The position numbers and the translations under genes were made by a program. A model generated the notes under the pieces. The model ran no database searches. It saw only the letters and a program-made list of their open reading frames with translations, and had not been told where the DNA came from. Positions 8,016-10,785 of a stretch of DNA of 51,226 nt are shown piece after piece. Numbering within the stretch: position 1 is the stretch's first letter; every line of letters starts with the position of its first letter. The DNA lies in assembly GCF_003148885.1 (NCBI RefSeq), contig NZ_QGHD01000017.1, positions 1-51,226 of the forward strand, given 5' to 3'. The DNA comes from Hallerella porci. GTDB taxonomy: Bacteria > Fibrobacterota > Fibrobacteria > Fibrobacterales > Fibrobacteraceae.

Positions 8016-9193
8016 AAGTCCTCGTCATCGGTTCCGTTTATCCGCGATTTGAAAAAGATAACGAAGTGCCGTGGCTTCGAAAGTCCGTGGCGACGTTACG
8101 CGAATTGGGCGTAGAAGTAGAAGTTTTAGCGCCGTCTTATAAAGGCTTAGCGTCGCATACAATCGATGGTGTTACCGTACACCGTTTTCGTTATGCGCCG
8201 AAGAATTTGGAAATTCTCACTCACGATGAAGGTGCTCCGACAAAAATGGCGAAGCATCCGTCGATGCAACTTCTTGCGATTCCCTATTGCATTAGCGGAT
8301 TTTTCAAATGCATTTGGCTTGCGCACAAGAAAAAATTTGACATCATTCATGCGCATTGGCCGTTCCCGCATGCGCTCATTGCGCTCGGAGCTTGCAAACT
8401 TTTTCACATTCCTCTTGTGCTGAATTTTCATGGCGCAGAACTTTTGCTTATCCGCAAAAAAAAGTGGATTCGCCCGATTATGAAATTTATCATTGGGCAA
8501 GCGCAAGCGATTTTTGCAAACAGTCATTTCACCGCGCAAAAAATTTCTGCCTTGCGCAAAAGAGAAATTCTCTGGAGCCCTTACGGTTCGCCGCTCGCTT
8601 CGGGAAAAGTTCCGCCGCCACATCTGCGAAATGGAAAGTATCACATTCTTTTTGTCGGCAGACATATTGAGCGCAAAGGCATCGAATATTTAATTCGCGC
8701 AGCCGCTCTTCTCGATTTGAAAAAATTTGAAGTGCGCATTGTCGGCAAAGGCGATTTGACGGATTCCTTAAAAGAATTGGCAAAAAAAATTGCACCGGAA
8801 AATGTGCTCTTTACCGGATCGATTTCTCCCGAAGAATTGAATCAAGAATATCTTTCGGCAAATTGTTTTGTGCTTCCCGCGATCGTCGATTCGAAAGGCG
8901 ATACCGAAGGCTTAGGCGTTGTCCTTATCGAAGCGATGCAAAGTGGACTTCCTGTTGTCGCATCGGATGTCGGCGGCATTTCCGATGTCGTGGTAAATGG
9001 GGAAACGGGAATTCTTGTGCCCGAAAAAAATCCCGAAGCATTGGCAGAAGCTTTTCAAAAATTAGAAAGCAATCCCGCTTACGAAGCAGAACTTTTACGC
9101 GGAGCTGAAAAGCGCATCGCCGAATATTTTGAGTGGAAAAAAATCGCCGAAAATCAAATAAGAAAATACGAAGAAATTAGAAATAAGAAATAG
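8012..9193 (+). CDS. GT4 family glycosyltransferase
   Basis: This 393-aa retaining GT-B glycosyltransferase moves a sugar from an activated donor to an acceptor glycan or lipid at the inner membrane face. The N-terminal half has the acceptor-side Rossmann domain (MKVLVIGSVYPRFEKD, then FDIIHAHWPFP near 109-118). The C-terminal half has FVGRHIERKGIEYLIRA (214-230) and the family EX7E motif as Glu299 and Glu307 (EGLGVVLIEA), followed by GLPVVASDVGGISDVV. The donor sugar cannot be read from sequence. It overlaps the upstream GGDEF-like gene by 4 bases and ends at a terminator (9222-9252). Exopolysaccharide or LPS assembly is the likely setting; no other glycan genes are adjacent. Confidence 0.9.
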   Translation: MKVLVIGSVYPRFEKDNEVPWLRKSVATLRELGVEVEVLAPSYKGLASHTIDGVTVHRFRYAPKNLEILTHDEGAPTKMAKHPSMQLLAIPYCISGFFKCIWLAHKKKFDIIHAHWPFPHALIALGACKLFHIPLVLNFHGAELLLIRKKKWIRPIMKFIIGQAQAIFANSHFTAQKISALRKREILWSPYGSPLASGKVPPPHLRNGKYHILFVGRHIERKGIEYLIRAAALLDLKKFEVRIVGKGDLTDSLKELAKKIAPENVLFTGSISPEELNQEYLSANCFVLPAIVDSKGDTEGLGVVLIEAMQSGLPVVASDVGGISDVVVNGETGILVPEKNPEALAEAFQKLESNPAYEAELLRGAEKRIAEYFEWKKIAENQIRKYEEIRNKK

Positions 9194-9221
9194 AAATACT
9201 TCGAAACATTTTTAATGATGC

Positions 9222-9252
9222 AAAAAAAATCTCGCTTTAGCGAGATTTTTTT
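9222..9252 (+). terminator. Rho-independent terminator after the GT4 gene
   Basis: AAATCTCGC and GCGAGATTT pair around a TTTA loop, followed by a run of T. The stem is flanked by A and T runs, so it may work on both strands. Confidence 0.9.
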
Positions 9253-9297
9253 CTATATTCATCGCGTTAGAATTTTGCAATGGTGCAAAATTTTTCC

Positions 9298-9331
9298 GGA
9301 AGTCATTGTCTAACCTTCCTTAAAAAACAAC
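9298..9331 (+). promoter_or_regulatory. PreQ1-I riboswitch
   Basis: P1 is GGAAG (9298-9302) with CTTCC (9315-9319). The 12-base loop is TCATTGTCTAAC and the tail is TTAAAAAACAAC (9320-9331), running straight into ATG at 9332. The B. subtilis preQ1-I aptamer has the same layout: 5-bp P1, 12-base loop, A-rich tail. Loop position 6 is G in both (9308). TTGT (9306-9309) can pair with ACAA (9327-9330) as the P2 pseudoknot, and the last loop base is the C (9314) that pairs with preQ1. Because P2 sits beside the start codon, control is probably translational. A likely promoter box TATATTC lies at 9254-9260. Just upstream, a weak AT-rich hairpin occupies 9271-9292. Confidence 0.9.
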
Positions 9332-10102
9332 ATGAAAAAGAATACTTTTCTTGCTGCATTCATTCGTCGCGAATTGAAAGATTACACTCTTCTTTTGCGA
9401 AATATTCCCTCATTAGTCGTAAACCTTTTTATTCTTTCTGTCGTGTGCATGAATTTGCTCGCAAACAAAGAATTGGTTTCGTGCAAATACTTGGCGCTCG
9501 ATTGCGGTTTTACGCTGAGTTGGATTTCGTTTTTATGCATGGACATGATTTGCAAACGCTTCGGTCCCAAAGCGGCGATTAAAATTTCTCTGCTCGCTTT
9601 GCTAGTTAATTTATGCACATTTGTGCTTTTCAATTTGCTTTCGCATACGCCGGGAATGTGGGGCGAATTTTACAGCTATATCGATTCCGATGTGAACGCG
9701 GCAACCGTTGCAAATAATGCTTTGAACGCCACATTTGGCGGCACTTGGTATGTCGTTTTTGGCTCTGCGCTTGCGATGTTTGTTTCGACTCTTGCCAATT
9801 CAAGTCTCAATCATTTCATTGCGAAAATTACGCACGCGTCGGGATTTAAAAATTTTGCGATTCGTTCTTATTTTTCAACGATGATTGCGCAATTCATCGA
9901 CAATTTTATTTTTGCGCTCGTCGTAAGTCATGTGTTTTTTGGATGGACGATGACGCAGGTTTTTGTGTGCTCGTTAACGGGTGCAGTGATGGAACTTTTG
10001 TGCGAAATTATTTTTAGTCCGATGGGATATAAAATGTGTCAAGCGTGGGAAAAAGAAGGCGTTGGACTCGAATATTTAAAATTTAAGGCAGAACAAAAAT
10101 GA
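9332..10102 (+). CDS. Queuosine precursor transporter (VUT/YhhQ family)
   Basis: This 256-aa inner-membrane protein of the VUT family (COG1738) has about six membrane helices. Members import preQ0 or preQ1, precursors of the queuosine base of tRNA. Family features include LFILSVVCMNLLANKELV in the first helix, WISFLCMDMICKRFGPKAA, IAQFIDNFIFALV and a C-terminal MELLCEIIFSPMGY. The preQ1-I aptamer that ends at its start codon supports this substrate strongly and predicts that high preQ1 shuts the gene off. There is no separate SD sequence. The stop overlaps the start of the SDR gene by 4 bases (ATGA). A large loop near residues 105-145 separates helices 3 and 4. Confidence 0.93.
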   Translation: MKKNTFLAAFIRRELKDYTLLLRNIPSLVVNLFILSVVCMNLLANKELVSCKYLALDCGFTLSWISFLCMDMICKRFGPKAAIKISLLALLVNLCTFVLFNLLSHTPGMWGEFYSYIDSDVNAATVANNALNATFGGTWYVVFGSALAMFVSTLANSSLNHFIAKITHASGFKNFAIRSYFSTMIAQFIDNFIFALVVSHVFFGWTMTQVFVCSLTGAVMELLCEIIFSPMGYKMCQAWEKEGVGLEYLKFKAEQK

Positions 10103-10785
10103 ATGCAAATCAAAAAAAATTAAATGTTTTTATCAGCGGCACGAGCGCAGGAATTGGCAAAGCAACTGCAGAACTTTTTTTAGAAAAAGGATTTTCCGTT
10201 TTTGGATTTGACATTCAAAATGCAACGATTGTGCATTCGAATTATACGCATTATAATACGGATATTTCAGATAAATTAACTTATCCCCAATTCAATTTTC
10301 AACCTGAAATTTTAATCAATAATGCAGGCGTTCAAAATTCCGGAAAAGATATTGAAATCAATTTAAAAGGCTCAATTTATTTTACCGAAAATTATGCGTT
10401 TCATCAAGGAATTCAAGCGGTGTTATTTGTCGCTTCAGCCAGCGCGCATTCGGGCGCAGAATTTCCCGAGTATTCGGCGTCAAAAGGCGGACTGATTTCG
10501 TATATGAAAAATGCAGCGATTCGCTTAGCAAAATTCGGCGCTGTTTGCAACAGCATTTCGCCCGGTGGCGTTACAACAGAATTGAATCGTCCCGTTTTAG
10601 AAAATGAAAATTTGTGGAATCAAATTATGCAAGTGACGCCGTTAAAACGTTGGGCGACGCCTAAACAAATCGCCGAATGGATTTACTTTTTAACTGTCGT
10701 CAATAAAAATTGCACGGGTCAAGATATTTTAATCGATAACGGCGAAAAAGATTTAAACGCTACATTTGTGTGGCCAGAAAATTAA
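10099..10785 (+). CDS. Short-chain dehydrogenase/reductase (SDR)
   Basis: This 228-aa classical SDR is a cytoplasmic NAD(P)-dependent oxidoreductase. The nucleotide-binding motif TGxxxGIG appears as SGTSAGIG (13-20), NNAG is at 74-77, the catalytic Ser is in the VASASAHSG strand (113 or 115) and YxxxK is Tyr125/Lys129. SPGGVTTEL follows the active site as usual. FGFDIQ gives an Asp after strand 2, which favours NAD over NADP. The substrate is not evident. It overlaps the transporter by 4 bases, so it belongs to the preQ1-controlled transcript; SDRs are not standard queuosine genes. Base composition is more AT-rich than neighbouring genes, and its 3' end meets the FISUMP gene head-on. Confidence 0.88.
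   Translation: MNANQKKLNVFISGTSAGIGKATAELFLEKGFSVFGFDIQNATIVHSNYTHYNTDISDKLTYPQFNFQPEILINNAGVQNSGKDIEINLKGSIYFTENYAFHQGIQAVLFVASASAHSGAEFPEYSASKGGLISYMKNAAIRLAKFGAVCNSISPGGVTTELNRPVLENENLWNQIMQVTPLKRWATPKQIAEWIYFLTVVNKNCTGQDILIDNGEKDLNATFVWPEN

Follow-up and report, generated by a model that had tools for sequence, protein, structure and literature searches.

A predicted preQ1-I type II riboswitch lacking a Shine-Dalgarno sequence upstream of a queuosine-precursor transporter operon in Hallerella porci

Introduction

In the classification of preQ1-I riboswitches, the types are separated by the bases that precede the 3' strand of the P1 stem, which are UC in type I and AC in type II, and a C7-G11-C30 triple has been described for the type II aptamer of Thermoanaerobacter tengcongensis (Tte) (PMC11625349). 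The type II aptamers of Tte and Bacillus subtilis (Bsu) have been solved and their sequences published (PMC10639078), and the type III riboswitch of E. coli yhhQ has been crystallized and tested (PMC10622847). In C. difficile, a bacterium unable to make preQ1, a preQ1-I riboswitch precedes the salvage transporter and enzymes of the queK-qrtT-queL operon, the enzymes of which release preQ1 from queuosine and queuine (PMC11477304). A 2024 review of preQ1 switches regarded riboswitches in mRNAs without a Shine-Dalgarno (SD) sequence as a challenge for the field; their existence was predicted and indirect occlusion was proposed, and Fibrobacterota and Spirochaetota are both missing from the phyla given there for preQ1-I types I and II (PMC11625349).

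Here, a stretch of 51,226 nucleotides of the Hallerella porci genome (contig NZ_QGHD01000017.1; hereafter the window) was analyzed. Directly upstream of a transporter gene, it contains what is well supported, on the basis of sequence comparison, as a genuine preQ1-I type II riboswitch whose expression platform has no SD. The element is in all likelihood a translational OFF switch, for which we infer the ligand, the block to the ribosome, the substrate of the transporter and the role of the short-chain dehydrogenase/reductase (SDR) encoded by the second gene of the operon. A preQ1-I switch with no SD to hide is very probably new for the Fibrobacterota.

Aptamer Sequence and Type

The element reads GGAAG UCAUUGUCUAAC CUUCC UUAAAAAACAAC and is followed by AUG. 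Its parts are as follows.

Positions 9298-9331, forward strand: predicted preQ1-I aptamer, type II, directly 5' of the ATG of the COG1738/Vut_1 transporter gene
Positions 9298-9319, forward strand: P1 stem-loop, GGAAG (9298-9302) with CUUCC (9315-9319), 5 bp with a G-C pair on top
Positions 9303-9314, forward strand: P1 loop UCAUUGUCUAAC, 12 bases, of which the sixth is G (9308) and the twelfth C (9314)
Positions 9306-9308, forward strand: 5' strand of the predicted P2 pseudoknot, UUG, invariant in Fibrobacter
Positions 9320-9331, forward strand: A-rich L3 and 3' tail UUAAAAAACAAC with an A6 tail, adjoining the ATG at 9332-9334
Positions 9328-9330, forward strand: 3' strand of the predicted P2 pseudoknot, CAA, ending one base 5' of the ATG

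A fourth P2 pair, U9309-A9327, is possible. The loop carries UC after the 5' strand of P1 and AC before the 3' strand (UCUAAC followed by CUUCC), and the remaining marks of type II, namely the top G-C pair of P1, the C at the specificity position and an A-rich tail followed by C, are also present. The second and sixth loop bases, C and G, and the tail C correspond to the C7-G11-C30 triple of Tte; this match and the AC dinucleotide therefore assign the aptamer to type II. The marks of type I, UU after the 5' strand of P1 and UC ahead of its 3' strand, are absent, and so are those of type III, a short pyrimidine-rich loop and an AAGG SD inside P2, since the loop here has 12 bases and there is no SD.

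Among the solved type II aptamers, Tte is the closest, and it shares with the element the 5-bp P1 with its top G-C pair, the UC and AC flanks, the predicted pairing of G with the tail C and the UUAA...AAAACAA tail (PMC10639078), as well as translational control, which we infer for this locus. In contrast, the loop and L2 are two bases longer and the tail is one base shorter than in Tte, and whereas the Tte tail runs into the SD (CAAGG), CAA here runs into the ATG. Bsu resembles the element in that its loop has 12 bases, its tail is A6, C occupies the specificity position and L2 is equally long; Bsu, however, controls transcription via a terminator, and a terminator-like site was not seen by a scan of positions 9150-9420. 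The E. coli yhhQ switch differs from the element in its shorter pyrimidine-rich loop, its longer variable tail and the AAGG SD inside the pseudoknot.

A strict descriptor of preQ1-I type II found the site at 9298 as its sole match on both strands of 251,226 bases of the Hallerella porci genome. Furthermore, a covariance model, R2, was built from an alignment (A8) of Tte and Bsu sequences only; the mixed alignments A5-A7, in which P1 was displaced by one base, were left out. The best R2 match in the window was 9298-9333 (19.7 bits, E 0.027; runner-up 12.7 bits), and over 290 kb the four top matches were the window site and the leaders of loci L004, L020 and L110. The folding energy of the plain P1 stem is unexceptional (z -1.2), which is in line with the small size of the pseudoknot.

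Conservation in Fibrobacterota

Close orthologues of the transporter (about 70% identity or more) occur in 20 of 168 Fibrobacterota genomes, all within two genera, and the aptamer precedes every one of them. A model built on Fibrobacter leaders, R1, found one site per transporter genome, always in the transporter leader, with the exception of G068, in which a second copy lies 5' of a transporter fragment. Weak R1 matches in three further genomes (G027, G083 and G121; 24.6-26.6 bits) were rejected, their likeness being confined to the A-rich tail. Fibrobacteraceae also have distant COG1738 genes (25-30% identity); those examined are without such a leader.

Between orthologues, 31-33 of the 33 aptamer bases are identical, as against 20-38% at the four-fold degenerate sites of the gene. 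Across all aligned Fibrobacter leaders, neither C9314 nor the A tract varies. At two loci (L020 and L021), AGAAG/CUUCU replaces GGAAG/CUUCC, a compensatory P1 change that amounts to one G-C to A-U event within the genera g1 and g6. Every Fibrobacter leader has complementary UUG and CAA, yet neither strand varies, and covariation of P2 is therefore absent. On re-reading of the sequence, the position of the element, the A6 tail and the lack of an SD were all as described in the initial annotation, and its assignment of the RNA to the class I preQ1 fold is borne out by the descriptor, the Tte and Bsu model and the conservation, with the type now assigned as type II.

Leader and Promoter

Upstream of the aptamer, three elements were recognized.

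Positions 9222-9252, forward strand: hairpin TCTCGC-TTTA-GCGAGA followed by a T tract, not kept in orthologues
Positions 9254-9259, forward strand: probable -10 element, TATATT, from comparison of orthologues
Positions 9269-9294, forward strand: 5' leader hairpin of 11 pairs with a 4-base loop, from the alignment of leaders

The hairpin at 9222-9252 probably terminates transcription of the glycosyltransferase gene upstream and would set that gene apart from the transporter operon. Several orthologues have TTGAAA or TTGATA 17 nt before TATATT and GTTAGA 6-7 nt after it (TTGAWA-N17-TATATT-N6/7-GTTAGA), and because of this common pattern the transcript probably starts near 9266; the -35 element of the window itself is poor.

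The leader hairpin at 9269-9294 is kept in all 11 aligned Fibrobacter leaders, two pairs being changed on both sides, and is missing from the clade of L020 and L021; it perhaps serves RNA stability. Its loop contains an AUG in all 11 aligned leaders. A leader open reading frame from this AUG (9280-9582) was dismissed as a chance occurrence, because its frame is not kept and its base changes are non-synonymous. The invariant GUUAGA (9266-9271) has its complement in the aptamer loop, UCUAAC (9309-9314). An anti-aptamer pairing of these two strands was considered a weak idea, since the plain fold is more stable by 2-5 kcal/mol and L020 and L021 do not have the pairing.

Start Codon and Mode of Control

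An SD is found before the transporter ATG in none of the Fibrobacter orthologues, and the distance from CAA to ATG is 0-5 nt in every aligned orthologue. A genome-wide lack of SD sequences was ruled out as the reason, since an SD-like 4-mer is in place in 43% of 182 sampled Hallerella porci genes, compared with 2% in a control stretch. A start codon farther upstream was also rejected in the window, where the loop of the aptamer contains an in-frame TAA and no start codon follows it. In nested folding with P1 alone, the tail and the AUG are mostly unpaired (mean 0.74-0.98).

Based on these features, a likely mechanism can be proposed for translational control. When preQ1 is absent, P1 alone would form and the A-rich tail and the AUG would be single-stranded, so that the 30S subunit could start at the AUG without an SD. 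When preQ1 is plentiful, the ligand may pair with C9314, while UUG (9306-9308) may pair with CAA (9328-9330) and the A tract may dock into the groove of P1. The closed pseudoknot would then end one base 5' of the AUG, within the footprint of the ribosome, and initiation would fail through steric occlusion, not through masking of an SD.

A real preQ1 aptamer could instead act mainly on transcription, by pseudoknot-stabilized pausing as described for Bsu (PMC11625349), or on mRNA stability, and both the lack of an SD to hide and the conserved U-tract hairpin just 5' of the aptamer would be compatible with this. Such a mode is nevertheless unlikely, because the scan of 9150-9420 gave no terminator-like site and because the aptamer lies 0-5 nt from the ATG in all aligned orthologues, the place expected for translational control.

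Transporter Operon and Queuosine Pathway

The two genes that would be under the control of the translational OFF switch are as follows.

Positions 9332-10102, forward strand: transporter gene, 256 aa, COG1738/Vut_1 (QPTR), predicted queuosine-precursor transporter by family
Positions 10099-10785, forward strand: SDR gene, 228 aa, PF13561/PF00106, second gene of the operon

The transporter matches Vut_1 (PF02592) with 87.5 bits (cut-off 27.2; E 1.5e-24), which confirms the VUT/YhhQ family named in the initial annotation. Its score against TIGR00697, "queuosine precursor transporter", is 36.1 bits, below the cut-off of 50.95, and by sequence it is classified as a divergent branch of QPTR/COG1738. 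Like the window aptamer, the E. coli yhhQ switch controls a COG1738 queuosine-precursor transporter; BLASTP gave no significant pairwise similarity between E. coli YhhQ and the window transporter.

The ATG of the SDR gene overlaps the TGA of the transporter gene (ATGA), an overlap seen in Fibrobacter, and translation of the SDR is therefore probably coupled to that of the transporter. The SDR gene lies directly 3' of the transporter gene at loci of Fibrobacter, Clostridia, Coriobacteriia and Treponema; a conserved downstream SDR in a shared operon across four phyla is a new observation. Within Fibrobacteraceae, the SDR is restricted to transporter genomes (18 of the 20, with the remaining two on short contigs) and to G087 and G096; in the latter pair it stands beside a different QPTR gene (about 27% identity), and both genomes are without queC and queF.

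Regarding the queuosine pathway, tgt is present in 164 of 168 Fibrobacterota genomes and queA and queH in 28 of 28 tested genomes, and queG was found in none of the Fibrobacterota genomes tested. Two tgt-family matches per genome were seen in G000 and in most g1 and g6 genomes, with or without the transporter. On the other hand, queC is missing in 18 of the 20 transporter genomes and present in 50 of the 66 others of the two genera (Fisher P 1.7e-7), and queF is missing in 17 of the 20 and present in 53 of the 66 (Fisher P 1.9e-7), P values that are too optimistic because the genomes are not phylogenetically independent. Neither gene is found in 17 of the 20 transporter genomes. The same division runs through the genus of the window itself, in which two genomes (G000 and G140) have the switch without queC and queF and four (G141-G144) show the reverse. 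As exceptions, the genomes of L020 and L021 (G097 and G100) keep queC and queF alongside the switch-transporter-SDR operon, and G125 keeps queF. Among operon genomes from other phyla, queC exceeded the cut-off in 0 of 12. Because queC and queF are missing while tgt, queA and queH are kept, the pathway gap in most transporter genomes is, by gene content, exactly at preQ1, which would be usable but not made. The link between this transporter and queuosine precursors suggested in the initial annotation thus stands, as genomes without queC and queF keep the three downstream genes. Since this gene content is found in most of the genomes, salvage of preQ1 is the most likely function of the operon, which the switch would shut once preQ1 suffices.

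The pseudoknot could, in principle, be preQ1-I-like and yet have another 7-deazaguanine as its true ligand, such as preQ0, queuine or a derivative, matched to what the transporter imports. The preference of Tte for preQ1 over preQ0 is only 17-fold, and the substrate preferred by E. coli YhhQ is preQ0 (PMC10622847); substrates of QPTR proteins vary and include queuine in intracellular pathogens (PMC11570991); and the SDR of the operon suggests chemical conversion of the imported compound. This reading is nonetheless improbable, given that the specificity base and the pocket bases agree with those of known preQ1 aptamers and that preQ0 would be useless to genomes in which queF is missing, whereas preQ1 is needed where queA and queH are kept.

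The closest parallel is the C. difficile operon, in which preQ1-I likewise stands over a salvage transporter and enzymes; in contrast to the present operon, its transporter is an ECF component (QrtT) and its enzymes are a hydrolase and a lyase in place of an SDR. No report of an SDR of this kind in queuosine salvage was found in the literature searched. The operon points to the SDR as a candidate new queuosine-salvage enzyme in fibre-degrading gut bacteria, and our hypothesis is that it acts comparably to the C. difficile enzymes in the release of preQ1. A broader and tentative proposal is that the operon serves salvage in gut bacteria of four phyla, in which the divergent QPTR might import a queuosine-derived compound (e.g., queuine), the coupled SDR might oxidize or reduce it toward preQ1, and preQ1 might shut the operon via preQ1-I, the Fibrobacter version being SD-less with the pseudoknot against the AUG.

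Orthologous Leaders in Other Phyla

A scan of genome contigs identified transporter orthologues (50-67% identity) in Clostridia, Coriobacteriia and Treponema, most of whose leaders are of a like plan. By type marks alone, the Clostridia leader, AAGCAG UUCGGGUCCGAUAUC CUGCUU ... AAAACCAAAGGAG, carries those of type I, and the Olsenella leader, AAGCAG UCCCAGGUAAAAC CUGCUU ... AAAACCGGGAG, those of type II. The Treponema leader reads GCGCAG UUUAUG...CUC CUGCGC ... CCUUAAGGAGG. The leader of L110, GGAUG UUCCUUGCAAAAC CAUCC GAAAAAAACAAGGAGG, is near the Fibrobacter switch in form but has an SD, and its predicted P2 takes a 5-bp form, CCUUG/CAAGG. The leaders of these other phyla share with the Fibrobacter leaders the orthologous transporter and SDR, the invariant top G-C pair of P1, the C before the 3' strand and the A-rich tail, whereas they differ in that most bear the marks of type I (UU...UC), their loops are longer and the tail contains a strong SD. 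One and the same transporter, with SD-bearing leaders in Clostridia, Coriobacteriia and Treponema versus SD-less leaders in Fibrobacter, therefore offers a natural comparison for asking whether a block at the start region is enough.

When the eight distinct P1 contexts are compared across phyla, 100% of the P1 cells are paired and three of the five pairs are changed on both sides, a level of covariation reached in 0 of 500 shuffles. In a tree of 80 transporters, the kinds of leader track the clades of the genes, those of Fibrobacter making up a single clade.

The Rfam model RF00522 (gathering cut-off 39 bits), a search with which had been suggested as a check of the window aptamer, gave no match at the gathering cut-off or at E 10, and none of the tested orthologue leaders of any phylum matched it. 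The leader of E. coli K-12 yhhQ (L142, 9178-9219) likewise had no match in the same permissive scan, even at E 10. Because a proven type III switch was missed as well, the negative result says little, and RF00522, which seems to under-detect non-canonical preQ1-I types, was dropped as a decisive test. That the element is a conserved protein-binding or other leader element with an accidental likeness to a preQ1 aptamer, as the lack of P2 covariation in Fibrobacter and the RF00522 result might suggest, is very hard to believe for the only descriptor match in 251 kb and the top match of an independent model, followed by a QPTR gene in genomes without preQ1 synthesis and accompanied by preQ1-I-like leaders in three other phyla.

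In Treponema, the loops are 21-22 nt long, and pairing of the loop with the entire SD is possible as well. Leaders in the range L046-L106 (L049, 2937-2986; L104, 521-568; L080, 2922-2977) are preQ1-I-like and follow three other designs.
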